Source of the DNA: a virus
Length of the DNA stretch: 22,543 nucleotides
IMG/VR virus record: IMGVR_UViG_3300020442_003935
Location: 1-22,543 of that record
Direction: 5' to 3' (one strand)
The translations under genes were made by a program, and so were the position numbers. Below, one piece after another: positions 172 to 9,072 of this stretch. The notes beneath the pieces are model-generated. The model saw nothing but the letters and a program-made list of their open reading frames with translations. It did no database searches and had not been told where the DNA came from. Numbering within the stretch: position 1 is the first letter of the stretch; each line of letters starts with the position of its first letter.

Positions 172-579
172 ATGACCGGAAAAATTACAGTAGGAACCAT
201 ACAAGATACTGCCGGAGATACGATCGCCTCTACTTTTGTTGTGAATGGTAGTGCAAAATATTGGTCTAATTTTGATGGAACAAGCACACCTTCATTGCGT
301 GATAGTTTAAACGGAAGTAGTATAACAGATGTAGGAACAGGTTTGTATCACTTACTTTTTACTAATAACATGGGCAATACTACACACGCACCGTTAGCTG
401 TTTCTAATAATCATGCATCAACTGATAATTTTGGAGGTGCATCTGACGTTGGTGTAGGTACAACTTATAGTAGCCTTACAATTGGCATTGCAACAACAGG
501 CTTTTCTGTTTCAACTTATGACGGTGGAGTTATTGATGCTGTACTCAATCAAGCAGTAACTTTTGGAGATCTCGCATGA
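172..579 (+). CDS. Small tail-fibre-type protein (135 aa)
   Basis: The protein starts MTGKITVGTIQDTAGDTIAS, a head seen on many short fibre proteins of marine T4-like phages. A Ser/Thr/Gly-rich beta-type body follows, with an FDGTST segment and a F-x-N-x-x-x-N-T-x-x-A-P segment. It is similar along its length to the protein at 19634-20032: both share FDG-S/T-S-T, SLN-x-S-S-x-TD, N(T)xxAP and end in GDLA. An AGGA at 161-164 precedes the ATG. The stop overlaps the next start as ATGA, which implies translational coupling with the LamG adhesin downstream. The likely role is an accessory fibre subunit or a fibre tip; binding specificity cannot be read from the sequence. Confidence 0.65.
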   Translation: MTGKITVGTIQDTAGDTIASTFVVNGSAKYWSNFDGTSTPSLRDSLNGSSITDVGTGLYHLLFTNNMGNTTHAPLAVSNNHASTDNFGGASDVGVGTTYSSLTIGIATTGFSVSTYDGGVIDAVLNQAVTFGDLA

Positions 580-3095
580 GTAAAAGCTTAAATAGAAATC
601 TTGCCGAACTTATTGACGGAACCGGTTCTGCAGTTGCCGGCGGTCTTACAGTATATGCAACAAAAGAAAATTTACCATCAACTGGACTTACATCAGGCGA
701 TCAAGCATACGTTACAAACACAAGTAGATTTTATATTTCAAATGGATCCGGATGGTACAATGTAGCACTAGTGAATGCAAATCCTGCTTTGACCATTAGT
801 CCAAGTGGCGTGATAGAATTGGATAATGAAGGATCGGCTACAACTATTACATTAACTGCCACAGATTCAGATAATGCTGTGGCTGGATTAATATTTAGTG
901 TAGAATCAGATGGCGATTTCTTTAAATTGGCCACATTATCTCAAGATTCCTCAGTGTTTACTATTACTCCAAGATCTAAAGATTCGGCAACTTCACTTAA
1001 TTTTGATGGTACATCCACCCTTACATTTAAGGCATCTGATGGAGTTAGTTTTGGTACAGGTACCTCAACACTCACACTTACTTTTGCAATACAATATTCT
1101 CAATATACAACTATGTTGTTAAAAGCGGATACTGGCAGTAATGATAATCAGGTTGATGCCTCTACAAATTCTACTAGCATTACTGAATATGGTAGTGTAA
1201 CATCTAGTGCATTTTCACCATATCACCCTGGCGGATACAGTTATTATTTTGATGGTACTGGTGATTGGATAACAATTGCCAATGGCAGTGAACAGATGTT
1301 GCCAGAAACTGGTGACTTTACAGTAGAATTTTGGTTTTATACTGCTAATGCTAGTACTCGTATGGATCCATATTCAAGTTATACTGGAACAACTGGATTT
1401 GGTATTATATTAAGTTATGGTTCTGCAGGTACAGTAACAACATATAATGGTAATACACTCACAAACCAATCCGCTGGTGGGCAATTTAGTGCAAATGTTT
1501 GGAATCATCTAGCTGTTTCTAGAAGCGGTACAACTACTAAAATTTTTATTAACGGCACTGCAATTCATACGAATACAAGTGATAGTACAGATTACAGCGG
1601 CACATCTGCTCTTTATATCGGTGCTGCAGGAAATGCAACACAACCTTACACTGGGTATTTAAGAGATGTAAGATTCGTAAAAGGAACTGCAGTTTATACC
1701 TCAAATTTCACAGCACCAAGTGAACCTCTTACAGCAATTAGTGGTACACAATTATTGGCTTGTCACTTACCGTATATTAGAGATGGATCTGCCAACGATT
1801 ATACACTTACCGTTAACGGCACACCACAGGCCAAAAGATATACACCTTATGACCATGAAGGCACATATGTGAAAACAAGTCATGGCGGTTCGGTACACTT
1901 TAATGGAACAAGTGATTATTTGGATATCGAGACTTCCACTGCAGCAGATTTTGGAACAGGTGACTTTACTGTAGAGGTGTGGTGGTATCCAACAACGCCT
2001 ACACAAAATGGAGTCCTTTGGGCTGGATTCACAAATGCCACAAATACAAGTAATAATGTTTGTGAGTTTTATCTCGGATTATCTACTGGATATTTGAGAC
2101 CGCATATTAATACCAACCTTAGCGGCACATGGACTACACGTATATCAACGACTGAATTTTGCTATGATAAAACTTGGAATCATGTAGCATATGTACGGAA
2201 CGGAAACGTTGGTAACATTTATATTAATGGTAAAAAAGGTCCAGATACTGCTATTGATGCATCTGCACAATTTAACAATCCATTTACTGCATTACGAGTT
2301 TTCAGAAGTAGACAAACCACAACTTCTTATGGTAAGGGATATTTGGCAGATTTACGAATTGTTAAAGGTACTGCAGTTTATACAGCAGACTTCACACCAC
2401 CGACTGCACCTTTAACTGCAATTACAAATACCGAAGTCCTTACAATGACAAATAAACATAGCACTTGGGACCAAGGGTCTGGAATAAGAATAAAACCAGT
2501 TGGTACAGCAGCTGCAAGTAATACTACAAGGAAATTCACATCATCATCTGCAATGTATATGGATGGCAATAGTGATTATTTTGATATTTCTTCCAGTGAT
2601 CCAATGGTGGATTTAATAAATTTTGGAACTCAAGATTTTACCATTGAGGTATTTGTACGTCCTGAAATGACAAACCAAAATTATCCTAGCTTTATATCAA
2701 GTACTTCAGGTTGGAATTCCGGAGCAAGTGGACATAGATTTGATAATATAGGATATGGTACTAAATTCTGGTTTGGACTAAATGGAGCATCAGGTAGAAA
2801 TAACGGAGATCCGTTTATGCATTCTACTAATAATTTCTTGCATGAATTATGGCACCACTATGCAATAACAAGATCAGGTAATACATTTAGAATGTTTGTA
2901 AATGGTGCACTAGAAGATACACAAACATATACCGGAGCCTATAATATGGCTCATGGCGGTTGCAGACTTGGGTGGGCCACTTGGGATGGCGGCGCTGGAT
3001 ATTTTTATGGATATATACAGGATTTAAGAGTTACCAAAGGGTTTGCAAGATATACCTCATCATTTACTGCACCAACTGCAACTTTTGAAGGATAG
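576..3095 (+). CDS. Large fibre/adhesin with three LamG-like domains
   Basis: This 839-residue protein has no signal peptide or membrane segment. Residues 1-65 form a short head. Residues 66-170 look like an Ig/cadherin-type beta domain (ALTISPSG, then TLTATDSDN). Three concanavalin A/LamG-type repeats follow at about 222-396, 437-625 and 655-839. Each opens with (Y/H)F-x-G-x-(S/G)-D-(Y/W), has FTVE(F/V)W-like and WNH-(L/V)-A strands, and closes with Y-(L/I)-x-D-(L/V)-R-(F/I/V)-x-K-G. The first two also share PLTAI. LamG folds bind glycans or proteins, so a host-recognition fibre or whisker is likely. It sits just before gp13, where T4 carries its fibre and fibritin genes (12, wac), but shows no sequence likeness to them. 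It overlaps the preceding gene by four bases (ATGA). Confidence 0.75.
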   Translation: MSKSLNRNLAELIDGTGSAVAGGLTVYATKENLPSTGLTSGDQAYVTNTSRFYISNGSGWYNVALVNANPALTISPSGVIELDNEGSATTITLTATDSDNAVAGLIFSVESDGDFFKLATLSQDSSVFTITPRSKDSATSLNFDGTSTLTFKASDGVSFGTGTSTLTLTFAIQYSQYTTMLLKADTGSNDNQVDASTNSTSITEYGSVTSSAFSPYHPGGYSYYFDGTGDWITIANGSEQMLPETGDFTVEFWFYTANASTRMDPYSSYTGTTGFGIILSYGSAGTVTTYNGNTLTNQSAGGQFSANVWNHLAVSRSGTTTKIFINGTAIHTNTSDSTDYSGTSALYIGAAGNATQPYTGYLRDVRFVKGTAVYTSNFTAPSEPLTAISGTQLLACHLPYIRDGSANDYTLTVNGTPQAKRYTPYDHEGTYVKTSHGGSVHFNGTSDYLDIETSTAADFGTGDFTVEVWWYPTTPTQNGVLWAGFTNATNTSNNVCEFYLGLSTGYLRPHINTNLSGTWTTRISTTEFCYDKTWNHVAYVRNGNVGNIYINGKKGPDTAIDASAQFNNPFTALRVFRSRQTTTSYGKGYLADLRIVKGTAVYTADFTPPTAPLTAITNTEVLTMTNKHSTWDQGSGIRIKPVGTAAASNTTRKFTSSSAMYMDGNSDYFDISSSDPMVDLINFGTQDFTIEVFVRPEMTNQNYPSFISSTSGWNSGASGHRFDNIGYGTKFWFGLNGASGRNNGDPFMHSTNNFLHELWHHYAITRSGNTFRMFVNGALEDTQTYTGAYNMAHGGCRLGWATWDGGAGYFYGYIQDLRVTKGFARYTSSFTAPTATFEG
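1236..3092 (+). repeat. Three diverged LamG repeats within one gene
   Basis: The closing motif of each repeat is also similar at DNA level. The stretch around 1672-1740 (YLRDVRFVKGTAVYT) resembles 2341-2424 (YLADLRIVKGTAVYT) closely, and 3010-3080 (YIQDLRVTKGFARYT) less so. The units are about 600 bases each and clearly diverged, so they are old domain duplications rather than recent tandem copies. Confidence 0.7.
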
Positions 3096-3153: not shown

Positions 3154-3909
3154 ATGGCACCACCTAATTCCAGAGATACGCTGATAGATTATTGTAAGCG
3201 TCGCCTTGGTGATCCAGTACTGGAAATCAACGTTGATGAAGACCAGATTGAAGATCGTATAGACGAGGCCTTACAGTATTATCAAGAGTATCATTCAGAT
3301 GCTACTGTCCGTACTTATTTAAAACATTTGGTAACATCTACTGATGTTGCAAATGAATATATTTCAATATCGTCTGATATTCTTTACATTACTAAATTAT
3401 TTCCAATGTCCTCTTCATTTGGAACTTCCTTTAATTTTTTTGATATTAAATATCAAATGATGTTAAATGATATTGCTGACTTTGCCACATTTGCTGGTGG
3501 GTTGGCTTATTATGAACAAATGCAACAATATTTGTCACTATTGGATATGAAATTAAATGGACATCCACAAACACAATTTTCCAGACATCAAGACAGACTT
3601 TATATATTTGGGGATTTTCAAGATGAGGATATTAAGGCTGGAGAATATTTAGTTGCAGAAGTATATACAACTTTAGATCCAAATACACATACCTCAATAT
3701 ATAATGACCTATGGTTAAAGGAATATGCCACTGCTCTTATTAAACAACAATGGGGTATGAATTTAATTAAGTTTGAAGGTGTACAATTGCCAGGTGGTGT
3801 TATATTAAACGGTAGACAATTATATGATGATGCAACTTCAGAAATAGAAACACTAAGACAAAGAATAAGAGATGAGTTTGAGTTTCCCGCTGACTTTTTT
3901 GTAGGTTAA
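3154..3909 (+). CDS. 13: Neck protein gp13 (head completion)
   Basis: The 251-residue protein matches the gp13 family of T4-like phages: an N-terminal RDTLIDYCKRRLGDPVLEIN segment, the acidic helix around DEDQIEDRIDEALQYYQEYH, and a C-terminal LWLKEYATALIKQQWGMNL followed by LPGG-VxLNG. In T4, gp13 and gp14 close the filled head at the portal vertex and make the surface to which the tail docks. It is shorter than the T4 protein (309 aa), as marine homologues usually are. A CGGAG ribosome site lies eight bases before the ATG. It is the first gene after the late promoter at 3112, and gp14 begins one base after its stop. Confidence 0.92.
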   Translation: MAPPNSRDTLIDYCKRRLGDPVLEINVDEDQIEDRIDEALQYYQEYHSDATVRTYLKHLVTSTDVANEYISISSDILYITKLFPMSSSFGTSFNFFDIKYQMMLNDIADFATFAGGLAYYEQMQQYLSLLDMKLNGHPQTQFSRHQDRLYIFGDFQDEDIKAGEYLVAEVYTTLDPNTHTSIYNDLWLKEYATALIKQQWGMNLIKFEGVQLPGGVILNGRQLYDDATSEIETLRQRIRDEFEFPADFFVG

Positions 3910-3910
3910 T

Positions 3911-4507
3911 ATGGCACGTAATTTTTATTTTTCTGAAAAGGTCAGATCGGAGATCAACCTATATGAAGACCTCATTATAGAGGCTTTAAAGGTATATGGT
4001 CAAGATGTTTATTATCTTCCTAGAACAATTGTAAATGAAGACACCTTGCTTGGTGATGATCCATCATCTACGTTTTCCGATTCACAGAAAATTGAAATGT
4101 ATATTGAAAATGCTGAAGGGTTTGATGGTGAAGGTGATTTATTTACAAGGTTCGGAGTGGAAATTCGTGATGAGGCAACATTTGTTGTTTCAAAATCTAG
4201 ATGGTCAACACAAGTAAATAGAGCAGATAATTCGTTACAGGGTGATCGACCTACTGAAGGTGATTTAATTTATTTACCTCTCAGCAAGTCTATGTTTGAA
4301 ATACGCCACGTTGAACATGAACAACCGTTTTATCAAATAGAAAATGTTCCAGTTTATAAAATGCGCTGCACACTCTTTGAATATAGTGGAGAGGATTTTG
4401 ATACTGGTACTGCAACTATTGATTCCATTGAAAGGGATTATGCATATCAATACAGGGTATCATTATTGGCGCCTAAGGTTGCCACAGCAACGGCGAGTAT
4501 TACATAA
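3911..4507 (+). CDS. 14: Neck protein gp14, core domain (appears split from its C-terminal extension)
   Basis: The 198-residue product carries the gp14 core: RNFYFSEKVRSEINLYEDL, then EALKVYGQDVYYLPRTIV, then FGVEIRDEATFVVSKSRW. gp14 works with gp13 at the head-tail neck. T4 gp14 is 256 aa, so this copy is short. It ends in ATATASIT and its TAA overlaps the ATG of the next gene (TAATG). The residues across that junction together resemble one complete copy of a repeat found whole inside the next protein, so the downstream gene probably carries a detached gp14 extension. The core domain is complete and should be functional. Confidence 0.88.
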   Translation: MARNFYFSEKVRSEINLYEDLIIEALKVYGQDVYYLPRTIVNEDTLLGDDPSSTFSDSQKIEMYIENAEGFDGEGDLFTRFGVEIRDEATFVVSKSRWSTQVNRADNSLQGDRPTEGDLIYLPLSKSMFEIRHVEHEQPFYQIENVPVYKMRCTLFEYSGEDFDTGTATIDSIERDYAYQYRVSLLAPKVATATASIT

Positions 4508-5745
4508 TGGCAAAGGTATCAAGTTTAACATTAACTGATTCAGGCAATTATTATACCACACCGCCAACAGTGGTAATAGATTTTCCAATACCGTCTGATA
4601 GTGACTTTCAAGGAAAAATAGATAGTGCAAATCCATATTTTGGATTTAGTTCATTGGTACATGATTCAGCCGATACTACCGTTGTAGCAACTCTTGCAGA
4701 TTCATATGGTGGTATTAATCAACAACCGGTGGAATTGGCATTTTGGATTAAACCTACTTCCATTCATGCATGTACAATAGCATGGTCTGATGATTTTAGA
4801 ATTGTAATGGACAGTAATGGTTTACCTGGTATGGCGTTTACAGTTGACTCTGCAGGTGCTGCTGATTCACATGCTGTAGGTATAACACAGACACGATATG
4901 CAAATCATGCACTTGATTCCAATCAATGGAATTTTATACACTTTGAACTTTTGAATAATGTTTTTAGACCAAATGTGGATAGTGTAAAAGGTTCTGATTT
5001 TACTTTGGCAATTACTAATAATTATCCTTATGATAGTGGAGATATAATAAGAATTGGTGCAGATCTAAATGATTCATCTCCTATTGCAACTTCAACAGGA
5101 GTTGGTAAAATTCCATCAAAAGGTTTTACTGGTTACGTTGACCACTTTACCTTTACAAAGAAAACATCACAGCCTATATTCGATAACGTACAATCAAATC
5201 GATTTGCCGAATCTGCCGCAGATTATTATTTTGGCCAAACTCCAGAAATTATAGAAACATTTGACTATAAAAGGGCAACTGCAGCTGCAACGATTGATTC
5301 TGCATCTGGTAAAGTAACAGGATTGATTATTGCGGATTCTGGTTCTGGTTATTCTTCAATACCAAATGTGAGATTAATAGGTGGTAGATCTGCAGCATTT
5401 GATAGTCAATATGAAATTGGAGATGATATTACTCAAACACTTGCATCTGGTGTAAAAATAAAAGGTGAAGTACAAAGGTATCAATTAGATTCCGACAGTG
5501 ATGGAAGTAGGTATTTGTTTTTAGCACATGTTGGTGCTGATGATGGAGAATTTAGAACATTTGTTAACGGTATCACGTTAAATAAAACACTACCGGCCGG
5601 ATCTGTAGGATTACAAGTTACCGGTGTAAATGAAATAAATAATATAAGTGAAACGGAACAAAATGATATATTTACATCTTCATTAGTGGATGACTTCCTA
5701 GACTTTAGTGAAGATAATCCATTTGGTGATCCGGAGGCAAATTAA
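4507..5745 (+). CDS. Probable detached gp14 C-terminal extension with a LamG-like domain
   Basis: The 412-residue protein has three parts. Residues 5-26 hold a SLTLTDSGNYYTTPPTVVID repeat. Residues ~33-235 look like a LamG/concanavalin A-type domain (ELAFWIKP, WNFIHFEL, KGFTGYVDHFTFTKK). Residues ~257-292 hold a second repeat (KVTGLIIADSGSGYSSIPNV). The remainder ends acidic (DFLDFSEDNPFGDPEAN). DSGxGYxxxP repeats are common in phage structural proteins. Start and stop overlap both neighbours as TAATG, so it is translated coupled with gp14 and gp15. It is probably a neck-surface decoration or binding domain. It could instead be read as a fusion with gp14 by a rare -1 shift. The family was not recognised by name. 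Confidence 0.65.
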   Translation: MAKVSSLTLTDSGNYYTTPPTVVIDFPIPSDSDFQGKIDSANPYFGFSSLVHDSADTTVVATLADSYGGINQQPVELAFWIKPTSIHACTIAWSDDFRIVMDSNGLPGMAFTVDSAGAADSHAVGITQTRYANHALDSNQWNFIHFELLNNVFRPNVDSVKGSDFTLAITNNYPYDSGDIIRIGADLNDSSPIATSTGVGKIPSKGFTGYVDHFTFTKKTSQPIFDNVQSNRFAESAADYYFGQTPEIIETFDYKRATAAATIDSASGKVTGLIIADSGSGYSSIPNVRLIGGRSAAFDSQYEIGDDITQTLASGVKIKGEVQRYQLDSDSDGSRYLFLAHVGADDGEFRTFVNGITLNKTLPAGSVGLQVTGVNEINNISETEQNDIFTSSLVDDFLDFSEDNPFGDPEAN

Positions 5746-6536
5746 TGTTTGGTGGACATTATTATCACGAAAGGATTAGAAAATCGGTTTCCATATTTGG
5801 CAGACTGTTTAATAATCTATACGTGATACGTAAAAATTCATCAGGTGGTGTTTTAAATCAATTAAAGGTTCCTTTGGCATATGCACCTAGGCAAAAATAC
5901 TTGGAAAGGATCCGTGAAAATCCAAGTCTTGAAGATGATACAAGAGTTGCAATTAAATTACCTAGAATGTCATTTGAAATTACAGATATATCATATGACC
6001 TTACAAGACAGTTGGCAAAGGTAAGTAATTTTAATACAAAAGGATCTGCACCATCAAAAAGACAAAAATTTTATTCACCTGTACCGTATAATATTGGATT
6101 TTCTTTAAGCATATATGCAAAGAATCAAGATGATGCATTACAAATAGTGGAACAAATTTTACCAACATTTAATCCACAATATACACTTTCAATATATCCT
6201 TTTAAGGACATTTATCCAGATTTTATTGAAGACGTACCTATTGCAATTACAGGTGTTACATTTGAAGATGATTATCAAAGTACACTTGAACAAAGAAGAA
6301 CAATTATATACAATATTACTTTTGAAATGAAAGTACAGTTTTACGGGGATATTGAAAATAAAGAAATTATTCGTCTTTCAAATGCAAAATTATTTAATAT
6401 GAATGCTGGTTTAAATGATTCAGATATATACTTAGAAAGGGTTACTGTAACTCCAAATCCAACGTCTGTAATAGGATTACCAGATAGTGATTTTGGATTT
6501 ATAACGGAAATAGTTTCAGCGGGAGATAGTTCATAA
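5745..6536 (+). CDS. 15: Tail terminator / sheath stabiliser gp15
   Basis: The 263-residue protein matches gp15 in length (T4 272 aa) and motifs: an N-terminal FGGHYYHERIRKSVSIFGRL, then VPLAYAPRQKYLERI, the strongly conserved RMSFEITDISYD, and a late TFEMKVQFYGDI strand. gp15 forms a hexameric ring on the head-proximal end of the finished tail, holds the last sheath ring, and joins the tail to gp13/gp14. It lies directly after the gp14 pair with a TAATG overlap, and the next gene overlaps its stop the same way. In T4, gp16 follows gp15 at once; here four fibre-type genes intervene. Confidence 0.92.
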   Translation: MFGGHYYHERIRKSVSIFGRLFNNLYVIRKNSSGGVLNQLKVPLAYAPRQKYLERIRENPSLEDDTRVAIKLPRMSFEITDISYDLTRQLAKVSNFNTKGSAPSKRQKFYSPVPYNIGFSLSIYAKNQDDALQIVEQILPTFNPQYTLSIYPFKDIYPDFIEDVPIAITGVTFEDDYQSTLEQRRTIIYNITFEMKVQFYGDIENKEIIRLSNAKLFNMNAGLNDSDIYLERVTVTPNPTSVIGLPDSDFGFITEIVSAGDSS

Positions 6537-7591
6537 TGCCAATAGTATTAAGATTAAATAAAGGTTCAGAACTTACCTTTGCAGAACTAGATGGTAACTT
6601 TACAGATTTAGATGATCGTGTAGATACCATTGAAGCTTTAAATCTTGGCTCACGGGTTACTAGATTGGAACAAGCGGGTACTCCAATCTATTTTGACTCT
6701 GACGATGTTATGGTTATGCTAGATTCCATTTGGGCAGGTGGTGTGGATTCATTTCTTGCAACTACGGATTCAATTGGACTGGCATCTTTTGATTCATCCA
6801 GATTTAGTGTTACAAATGGTCATGTCTCTTGGATTGAAAGACTTGCAACCATTGATAGTGATGGTACTGCTTCATTTGACTCTCAAGACTTTGTTGTTAC
6901 AAACGGTCATGTAACAATTAATCCTAACAGTCCTGGTGGTAGAGTGGCTGGTATTACACCAATTGATTCTACTGGTGTTGCTTCATTTGCAGATGCAGAT
7001 TTTAATGTAACGACTAATGGCCATGTATCACTTACTGATTCTGCTGTTAGGACAAGAGTTAGTGCTGTAGATGCGAGTGGGGATGGATCATTTGTATATG
7101 ATCAAACTACCGGTGAATTCACATACACTGGACCTAGTGCATCTGAAGTAAGAGCACATTTTTCTGCCGGTACAGGTATTAGTATTACGAATGGTGTTAT
7201 TGCAACAACAGGTGGCAGTGGTATACCAGTAAGTAGTGGTATCAATGTTGTAGGTTCTATAATGTTTTTACAAACTAGTGGTATGTCAAATGGTCAAGTA
7301 TATGCGCCAGGTGATAGTGTACCAGGAAGTAAATTAGTATATGGAAATAATAAAAATAATACTGGCAGTTTCGGATTTAGAAAAGAATTAGGTAGTAATG
7401 TTAGCACGCAAGGTTCGGTATATGTAGGCGTAGCTACTTTTCCAGGCTATAACTCGAGTAATGGCACTGCAGCAGGAGTGTCTGGCACATGGAGAAATTT
7501 AGGACCTGGTGTAGTAGGTTATAAATCAGGCTGGTTTACGAGTGGTAATACAGGTAGTACTGGTTACGGATTATTTCAAAGGATCTCATAA
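6536..7591 (+). CDS. Fibre-type structural protein A1 (first copy of a duplicated cassette)
   Basis: The 351-residue protein begins MPIVLRLNKGSELTFAELDG, a head found on many virion proteins of marine T4-like phages. Residues 22-47 form a heptad-like coiled coil (LDDRVDTIEAL, SRVTRLEQAG), which suggests a trimer. Four ~30-residue repeats follow at about 78-97, 107-126, 144-164 and 178-198, with the pattern DSxGxASFDSxxFxVxxGHV. After residue 200 comes SEVRAHFSAGTGISITNG, then a Ser/Gly-rich tip ending GTWRNLGPG...LFQRIS. Its N-terminal 200 residues are close to those of A2 at 7806-8861, which is also exactly 351 aa. It sits between gp15 and gp16, so a neck- or tail-attached fibre is likely; attachment site and receptor are unknown. 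Confidence 0.75.
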   Translation: MPIVLRLNKGSELTFAELDGNFTDLDDRVDTIEALNLGSRVTRLEQAGTPIYFDSDDVMVMLDSIWAGGVDSFLATTDSIGLASFDSSRFSVTNGHVSWIERLATIDSDGTASFDSQDFVVTNGHVTINPNSPGGRVAGITPIDSTGVASFADADFNVTTNGHVSLTDSAVRTRVSAVDASGDGSFVYDQTTGEFTYTGPSASEVRAHFSAGTGISITNGVIATTGGSGIPVSSGINVVGSIMFLQTSGMSNGQVYAPGDSVPGSKLVYGNNKNNTGSFGFRKELGSNVSTQGSVYVGVATFPGYNSSNGTAAGVSGTWRNLGPGVVGYKSGWFTSGNTGSTGYGLFQRIS

Positions 7592-7803
7592 TGGCAATTA
7601 CATGGACAGAAGTTAGAAATTTACAGTGGTCTGACGGATCATATACAGATATTGATATGGAAGTTAATTTTGATCATATAAATGACCAATGGATTCCATT
7701 CACAGCAAGTGCAAATGACGATGAACCACATGGTAGGGATTTACACGCAAGAGCTATGAATGGAGAATTTGGCACTGTATCTCCACCACCTGAAGGGAGT
7801 TAG
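7591..7803 (+). CDS. Small conserved protein B1, partner of fibre A1 (70 aa)
   Basis: The product starts MAITWTEV and carries PFTASANDDEPHGRDLHARA followed by NGEFGTV. The PFTA.AND.E.HG...A..G.(F/Y)G motif recurs in small phage tail-associated proteins and at the ends of some tail proteins. No function is established here. It overlaps the A1 stop (TAATG), and a homologue (B2) follows A2 in the same way, so A and B behave as a pair. A fibre chaperone, cap or attachment subunit is plausible, but this rests on context only. Confidence 0.6.
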   Translation: MAITWTEVRNLQWSDGSYTDIDMEVNFDHINDQWIPFTASANDDEPHGRDLHARAMNGEFGTVSPPPEGS

Positions 7804-7805
7804 AA

Positions 7806-8861
7806 ATGCCTATTGTACTACGGCTTATAAAAGGTAGTGAGTTAACCTTTGCAGAACTGGATGGTAATTTTACAGATCTAGACGGCCGACTTGATACAAT
7901 TGAAGCCTTTAATTTAAACAGTAGGGTTACTAGACTTGAACAGGCTGGCACTCCTATTTACTTTGACTCCGATGATGTCATGGTTATGCTTGATTCTATA
8001 TGGGGTGGTGCAAGAGGTAATGATTTCTTTGCTAGTACGGATAGTGTAGGTCTTGCTTCATTTGATTCTGCACGATTTACTGTTAATGATAGTGGTCATG
8101 TATCTTGGATTGAAAGATTGGCTTCTATTAACAGTGATGGTACGGCATCGTTTGACAGTGAAGACTTTATAGTTTTAAACGGACATGTCACAATTAATCC
8201 TAATAGCCCTGGCGGTAGAGTTGCAGGAAAAATAGAAATAGATTCAACTGGTGTGGCATCCTTTGATTCCGATGATTTTAATGTAAATACAAACGGACAT
8301 GTAACACTTACTGATTCTGCAGTACGTACAAGAATTAGTGCAATTGATAATGGCGGTGCAGGTTCGTTTACGTATAACGAAACATTAGGAACATTCATTT
8401 ATACTGGTGCACCTGATGCATCGACTAGTACAAAAGGTATTGCAAGTTTTAATTCATCTGACTTTAATGTATCATCTGGAGTTGTATCACTCGCGCAAAG
8501 CGGCGCAGCATTTAGTACATCGTTTGGTACGGTAGGATCCTTAGGATTTTTTATAGTTGCTAGCGGATCGGCAGCAGTTGGAAGTAATATTGCCGGATCA
8601 AATTTAAAGTATGGTGTTGGAGGAAGTAGTGACGGATCGGGGCATAGAATAAATCAATTTGCAGTAAACACCAGTGCGCTATATAATGATGGAGTCGGGC
8701 AAAATACTCAGTTCACTGCAGTGTCATTTAAAAGAGCCACTGGTAATAAACAAGCATCACCAGGTGGAACATGGAAAAACCTTGGACCGGGTCATGCAGC
8801 CAATGGTGGACAAAAACCTTATCAAGGTCATGGTTTAAATTTATTTGTAAGGGTATCTTAA
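7806..8861 (+). CDS. Fibre-type structural protein A2 (second copy of the cassette)
   Basis: The 351-residue protein has the same architecture as A1: head MPIVLRLIKGSELTFAELDG, coiled coil at 22-47, and repeats at about 79-99, 109-128, 146-165 and 180-200. It then has a fifth repeat (GIASFNSSDFNVSSGVV, ~209-229) where A1 carries the EVRAHFSAGTGISI module. The remaining tip is unlike that of A1 until the shared GTW(R/K)NLGPG and F-x-R-(I/V)-S end. Conserved shaft and diverged tip are what paralogous fibres with different binding surfaces would show. A hetero-oligomer with A1 is also possible. The ATG lies two bases after the B1 stop. Confidence 0.75.
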   Translation: MPIVLRLIKGSELTFAELDGNFTDLDGRLDTIEAFNLNSRVTRLEQAGTPIYFDSDDVMVMLDSIWGGARGNDFFASTDSVGLASFDSARFTVNDSGHVSWIERLASINSDGTASFDSEDFIVLNGHVTINPNSPGGRVAGKIEIDSTGVASFDSDDFNVNTNGHVTLTDSAVRTRISAIDNGGAGSFTYNETLGTFIYTGAPDASTSTKGIASFNSSDFNVSSGVVSLAQSGAAFSTSFGTVGSLGFFIVASGSAAVGSNIAGSNLKYGVGGSSDGSGHRINQFAVNTSALYNDGVGQNTQFTAVSFKRATGNKQASPGGTWKNLGPGHAANGGQKPYQGHGLNLFVRVS

Positions 8862-8862
8862 A

Positions 8863-9072
8863 ATGGCAATAACATGGACAACAGTAGCAAATCCTAGATG
8901 GGCAGACAGTGATCAAACTATGATTAACTTAGATGTGAATTTTACCCATTTACCAGAAGAAACAACACCATTTACTGCAATGGCAAATGATGTTGAAGTA
9001 CATGGTCAAACACTTTATAATAACGCACTTAATGGAGACTACGGTACAATAGCCGCATATAGTGATGAATGA
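8863..9072 (+). CDS. Small conserved protein B2, partner of fibre A2 (69 aa)
   Basis: It is a paralogue of B1: both start MAITWT, contain PFTAxANDxExHGxxL and end with A-x-NG-(D/E)-(F/Y)-GT. The spacer between those parts has diverged. It begins one base after the A2 stop, and its own stop overlaps the start of gp16 by eight bases. That ties the fibre cassette into the terminase message. Function is unknown; it would share whatever role B1 has. Confidence 0.6.
   Translation: MAITWTTVANPRWADSDQTMINLDVNFTHLPEETTPFTAMANDVEVHGQTLYNNALNGDYGTIAAYSDE

Follow-up and report, generated by a model that had tools for sequence, protein, structure and literature searches.

The neck protein gp14 of a marine T4-like phage is encoded, in the virus record analysed here, not in one open reading frame (ORF) but in two, which overlap at the stop codon of the first and together cover the protein from its N-terminal ring domain to its C-terminal region. 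It is probable, in our assessment, that this gp14 is made as two chains, which are cut at the turn of a beta-hairpin and rejoin by strand pairing, with the second ORF (ORF2) expressed by termination-reinitiation and the middle of the protein being an exchangeable segment. Judging from their sequences, uncultured relatives repeat this split, and in them too the end of a head-tail-joining protein would be made separately.

Locus and gene order

The window, that is, the whole stretch of DNA that was analysed, is an IMG/VR virus record of 22,543 bases with the T4-like gene order gp13, gp14 and gp15. The features of the locus are as follows.

3154..3909, + strand: gp13 (head-tail adaptor Ad2), upstream neighbour; phrog_211, E 2.7e-41.
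3911..4507, + strand: N-terminal part of gp14 (ORF1, 198 aa), the neck-protein ring/core domain; PF11649, and phrog_460 positions 15-208.
4481..4504, + strand: ATATASIT, C-terminal beta-strand of ORF1 and first strand of the severed hairpin; equals strand 192-198 in the model of the fused gp14 L014 (block pLDDT about 91).
4493..4509, + strand: junction element GCGAGTATTACATAATG, with the last gp14 codons, the stop and the overlapping ORF2 start; from exact-pattern scan, codon fixation and flank comparison.
4507..5745, + strand: ORF2 (412 aa), a separate protein that corresponds to the C-terminal part of gp14; phrog_460 positions 230-377, E 1.4e-9, with a C-terminal end common to fused gp14s.
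4513..4539, + strand: KVSSLTLTD, N-terminal strand of ORF2 and second strand of the severed hairpin; pLDDT about 85 and partnerless in the ORF2 model, strand 201-209 in the fused L014 model.
4582..5268, + strand: predicted LamG / concanavalin A-like domain between repeat 1 and repeat 2; VIA-align Z about 16 over model residues 26-254, missing here in the close fused relatives L024 and L186.
5266..5382, + strand: intact repeat copy within ORF2 (about residues 254-292); alignment score 60 against a shuffled mean of 20.6, strands 258-264 and 269-277.
5404..5742, + strand: conserved gp14 C-terminal region, ending DDFLDFSEDNPFGDPEAN; kept in fused and split gp14, and tail-side (gp15-contacting) by comparison with T4.
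5745..6536, + strand: gp15 (tail sheath stabilizer), downstream neighbour, also with a TAATG overlap; PF16724 219.5 bits, phrog_227 E 3.4e-71.

The position between gp13, recognised by phrog_211 upstream, and gp15, recognised by PF16724 downstream, is that of T4 gp14, and the ORF1 product has the N-terminal neck domain, with 127.9 bits against PF11649 (T4_neck-protein; cut-off 25). Among PDB sequences ORF1 matched T4 gp14 (E 3.6e-26), and ORF2 had no match.

One neck protein in two reading frames

The profile of head closure protein Hc2 (phrog_460, 385 positions) covers the two ORFs in succession, matching ORF1 at positions 15-208 (E 4.5e-73) and ORF2 at positions 230-377, so that ORF1 and ORF2 together make one gp14. 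T4 gp14 is a single polypeptide, gp15-docking C-terminal region included; in the window that region sits on ORF2, and gp14 is therefore assigned to the pair of ORFs and not to ORF1 alone. ORF1 ends in ATATASIT and ORF2, in the -1 frame, starts with MAKVSSLTLTDSGNYYTTPP, the stop and start sharing one A within TAATG. When the end of ORF1 and the start of ORF2 are joined and aligned to the intact repeat of ORF2 (KRATAAATIDSASGKVTGLIIADSGSGYSSIPNV), the BLOSUM62 score is 60, a value reached by none of 2000 shuffled controls (mean 20.6, SD 4.2). The earlier note, made from the letters of this DNA, had placed the break inside a repeat unit, with a TAATG overlap and a shift to the -1 frame, and this description holds for the ORFs at 3911-4507 and 4507-5745.

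Fused homologues run straight through both ORFs at the junction, with ATATVTMDSSGVATISLVNGGRYYTT-type hairpins; for example, the fused L186 reads ATATVTMDSSGVATISLVNGGRYYTTVPTV where the window has ATATASIT-stop/M-AKVSSLTLTDSGNYYTTPPTV. Single proteins spanning both ORFs are what the earlier note had suggested looking for in other phages. The alternative that two genes of unrelated origin always lie side by side here does not hold. A sequencing or assembly frameshift, or a gene in decay, would be a trivial account, and an indel would indeed produce a -1 offset; but dozens of contigs, drawn from different samples, have the same junction, ORF2 is intact and its C-terminus is conserved, which leaves such an artefact a practically negligible probability.

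The severed hairpin

In the AlphaFold model of the fused L014, in which the N-terminal half is poor (mean pLDDT 62.9) and the hairpin good, residues 192-198 and 201-209 form strands with pLDDT of about 91, separated by the turn to which the cut maps. The model of ORF2 (mean pLDDT 73.4) retains the second strand at pLDDT of about 85, with no partner strand. Neither the register nor the length of the severed strands changes across the split lineages. The stop falls at almost the same residue in further split lineages, which have different words there (KVELD, VASLD, TVTLS and TASL), and in a group whose GYV-type inserts are longer the cut is in the same loop. We infer that the ORF1 and ORF2 chains rejoin non-covalently through the two severed strands. 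In engineered split reporters, split proteins are restored by strand complementation; these and gp14 are both broken at the loop between two strands, but the gp14 case is natural and lies in a virion part, and its pairing is putative.

Variable inserts of the YVDSGYVxxGYV type occupy the hairpin loop in fused and split gp14 alike (L188, L196, L250, L251, L002 and L189), and the loop looks like an insertion hot spot.

The junction element

The junction GCGAGTATTWCRTAATG is conserved as nucleotides. An exact scan for it in viral contigs of IMG/VR gave 65 matches, of which we counted 56 as gp14 junctions followed by an ORF2 and nine as lying elsewhere. The GCG and AGT codons of the element are fixed in all 20 non-redundant motif-bearing splits, and none of 90 conserved core residues keeps one codon throughout; among the Ala codons of the gp14 genes GCG accounts for 9%, and among the Ser codons AGT for 22%. 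That set of 20 was chosen by the motif, and the fairer figures come from 37 splits fetched by protein, which carry before the stop GCGAGT (17), GTGAGT (one), GTGGAG or GTGGAA (14, mostly one clade) or none of these (five), so that 32 of 37 have such a sequence. Fused homologues of at least 371 aa have no GCGAGT or GTGAGT at the junction position, and six of them have GGAG there. In pairs with less than 60% core identity the 17-mer is 91% identical, and the 60-nt flanks are 50% and 34% identical.

The position of the element fits a start site, with the GAG core at a spacing of 9 nt from the ATG. The match of GCGAG to the anti-Shine-Dalgarno sequence is weak, at -3.1 kcal/mol, and 43% of random 20-mers of the window reach -3. 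A canonical Shine-Dalgarno sequence was rejected as the full reason for the conservation, the binding energy being no better than background. The 17-mer was also tried for pairing with parts of E. coli 16S rRNA other than the anti-Shine-Dalgarno, and this was likewise rejected, as 90 of 100 shuffles were at least as stable. Start signals outside the gp14 junctions are commonly GGAG- and AGGA-like.

The weakness of the anti-Shine-Dalgarno match, together with the clear exchange of the middle segment among phages (see below), would also suit a junction kept as a recombination boundary and not for translation. This appears improbable, since the flanks have diverged to 50% and 34% and no long homologous tracts are carried along, GCGAGT and GTGAGT are missing in fused phages, and GGAG is present in other split lineages at about this distance.

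The 17-mer GCGAGTATTWCATAATG was also seen at the start of unrelated ORFs (MSDPNKFINTYIDT... and MAKLTTKQRKALPKG...) in L108, L120, L127 and L081; this fits a start-site role and could be chance.

Expression of ORF2

Stop and start overlap as TAATG in the window, and as ATGA or TAATG in nearly all splits. Overlaps of -1 nt are known to couple translation by termination-reinitiation, and subunits of one complex are over-represented among the genes that have them (PMC10666635); the overlap seen here thus supports this route for ORF2. With known termination-reinitiation pairs of -1 or -4 nt overlap (PMC10666635, PMC6728339) the locus has in common the TAATG or ATGA and products that are probably subunits of one complex; it differs from them in that one gene is cut within a beta-hairpin and in that the junction nucleotides are unusually fixed.

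The earlier note had offered a programmed -1 ribosomal frameshift, by which some gp14 would be made at full length, as another reading. ORF2 does lie in the -1 frame, and that frame is open for 30 nt ahead of the ATG in the window. However, a -1 frame is automatic with TAATG or ATGA overlaps and is found at neighbouring pairs such as gp14/gp15; 35 splits checked have no slippery heptamer (X_XXY_YYZ); L212 and L284 have a -1 stop 3 nt ahead of the ATG; in L327 the ORFs are separated by a gap and ORF2 is in the +1 frame; and RNAalifold found no conserved RNA structure (-0.12 kcal/mol, two pairs, 17 sequences). A programmed shift is largely refuted by these observations, and we regard it as very improbable.

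Split and fused forms among relatives

Protein searches independent of the motif retrieved at least 37 distinct split and at least 125 distinct single gp14 genes among the best 80 matches per query, numbers that are not population frequencies. L063, with a gp14 of 200 aa and an odd frame, was left out as a probable frame error. Among cultured phages gp14 is one gene in P-RSM6, P-TIM40, P-HM1, S-CAM9, HTVC008M, S-SSM7, C48C1, Mosig, Melnitz-3, S-H38, S-CAM22, S-WAM1, S-RIM2, DLP_6 and T4, and none of the genome contigs of eight relatives has the split. The arrangement is therefore unusual, as had been supposed, in that the cultured phages examined are without it, and the literature searched, of incomplete coverage, holds no description of a split gp14.

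A further split lineage has the junction GTGGAGCTTGATTAATG (L283, L284, L285, L293, L294, L281, L296, L289, L290, L286 and L292), with ORF2 starting M[SGT]HRWKR and reaching about 490-1000 aa.

Repeated change and exchange of the middle segment

A tree of the core (first ~175 residues, 115 sequences) requires 20 changes between split and single states, of which at least five are forced by well-supported branches; this tree, like the one of the C-terminal 125 residues, was quickly built and has many weak forks. A single origin of the split is contradicted by the core tree, on which split forms are scattered. Several split forms have close single relatives, with core identities of 96% (L250/L245), 93% (L212/L024 and L267/L274), 92% (L215/L021), 91% (L188/L189), 88% (the window and L002) and 86% (L184/L186). 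The pairs L212/L024 and L184/L186 are grouped also on the C-terminal tree, and in their alignments the C-terminal regions are near-identical and the middle is different. As both the core and the C-terminus are shared, only the middle differs, and in these pairs the change was a segment exchange and not a one-base slip. In L267/L274 the downstream part is strongly different as well, which indicates that wider exchange occurs too.

The earlier note had imagined one ancestral gp14 broken by a one-base change and rescued by stop-start coupling. One gene split inside a repeat, with coupled stop and start, is retained from that account; the one-base break is not, since the same split is kept in dozens of contigs and the DNA of close split/single pairs differs across the whole middle, on which ground a point-mutation origin was rejected. 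The best reading is that the split state is a property of an exchangeable middle segment, which comprises the stop/start, the first half-repeat and the extra domain.

The LamG-like domain and the size of ORF2

The earlier note had also spoken of a separately translated neck extension carrying a LamG domain, and structural comparison agrees: residues 26-254 of the ORF2 model match laminin-G and pentraxin domains (Foldseek, VIA-align; Z about 16, rmsd mostly 2.3-3 A). By its predicted fold the domain would be of a sugar-binding type. No Pfam model matched ORF2 of the window at the cut-off, and Laminin_G_3 lay below the cut-off in L184 and S-SSM7. Chains of clostridial neurotoxin complexes also appear in the list of structural matches; they share the same common lectin-type fold at about 10% identity, and no functional relation is implied.

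All 30 non-redundant ORF2s that were measured have at least 267 aa, and 79 of 80 fused tails have at most 257 aa, the exception being S-CAM9 with 472. Of the independent split/fused pairs on supported branches, five of five agreed with this size difference (p 0.0625, too few pairs for significance). A profile of the LamG-like domain of the window matched 16 of the 30 splits, with a weak match in L094 set aside, and none of the 80 fused forms; further LamG-like stretches were seen by eye in L212, L215, L239, L184, L004 and L323. Outside those 80 stands the cultured phage S-SSM7, whose fused gp14 of 762 aa has a LamG-like domain, so that the domain does not require the split. This protein has the same order of core, repeats, LamG-like domain (Laminin_G_3 at 26.6 bits, just below the cut-off) and NPFG end as the window, and differs in being one continuous ORF with no stop/start.

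Function and proposed mechanism

T4 gp14 forms a hexameric ring docked on gp13. It acts as a gate for the packaged genome and, by way of its C-terminal region and gp15, docks the head on the tail; until the tail attaches, residues 178-256 are disordered, and afterwards they bind gp15 (PMC12270204). The gp14 of the window resembles that of T4 (Hc2; PF11649, phrog_460; PDB 9LU4, 9MKB) in the N-terminal ring domain, in the order gp13-gp14-gp15 and, by eye, in a C-terminal end like ...SSPFDNDFMD of T4, the likeness of the last residues of ORF2 being short. It differs in having two ORFs instead of one, a repeat insert, usually a LamG-like domain, and the tail-side region on its own chain. By homology, then, the gp15-docking region would be a separate protein in split phages.

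ORF1 and ORF2 might instead be separate proteins with separate roles, ORF2 serving as an adhesin or decoration attached to the neck, with no rejoining of the hairpin. Such a role would be in keeping with an ORF2 larger than all but one of the 80 fused tails, with its frequent LamG-like domain and with its untethered N-terminus. Yet ORF2 retains the gp14 C-terminal region, whose T4 counterpart docks on gp15, and both severed strands keep register and length across lineages; we consider separate roles unlikely, if still a serious alternative.

Under the preferred reading of a two-chain gp14, the protein would be cut at the beta-hairpin turn that separates the N-terminal ring domain from the tail-side C-terminal region. 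ORF1 would supply the ring domain, ending in the first hairpin strand; ribosomes stopping at the TAA would re-start on the overlapping ATG; and ORF2 would supply the second strand, the LamG domain, a further repeat and the C-terminal region. The chains would pair non-covalently via the two strands, and the neck would then work as in T4. Phages would gain or lose the middle segment with core and C-terminus kept, and a bulky extra domain could be made as a separate, coupled subunit. A wider proposal, which we put forward tentatively, is that marine T4-like phages may repeatedly make the neck protein as two chains reassembled across a severed beta-hairpin, that the 17-nt termination-reinitiation element may set the chain ratio, and that the freed chain may display lectin-like domains at the neck.

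A separate C-terminal gp14 protein in many marine phages would be a natural experiment on the way in which a virion joint tolerates gene fission. The exchange of the middle segment shows a route for adding domains to the neck, and the short conserved junction element offers a test case for termination-reinitiation.

Neighbouring genes

Between gp14 and gp15, a gene of about 80-87 aa (MSDD.FDFGFTAVDE..., or MAHKISFSRKLP...) lies in L137, L196, L327, L094 and others, and is absent from the window. Just upstream of gp13, positions 576-3095 encode a protein of 839 aa, in which about three LamG-like stretches can be made out by eye and phrog_24074 matches in three stretches; the domain is possibly of the same kind as in ORF2. 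Downstream of gp15, a pair of genes (351 aa and 70 aa; MPIVLRL...KGSELTFAELDGNF and MAITWT...) occurs twice in tandem, at positions 6536-7803 and 7806-9072, with starts alike and ends diverged; the 70-aa member at 7591-7803 has matches to phage tail fibre families.
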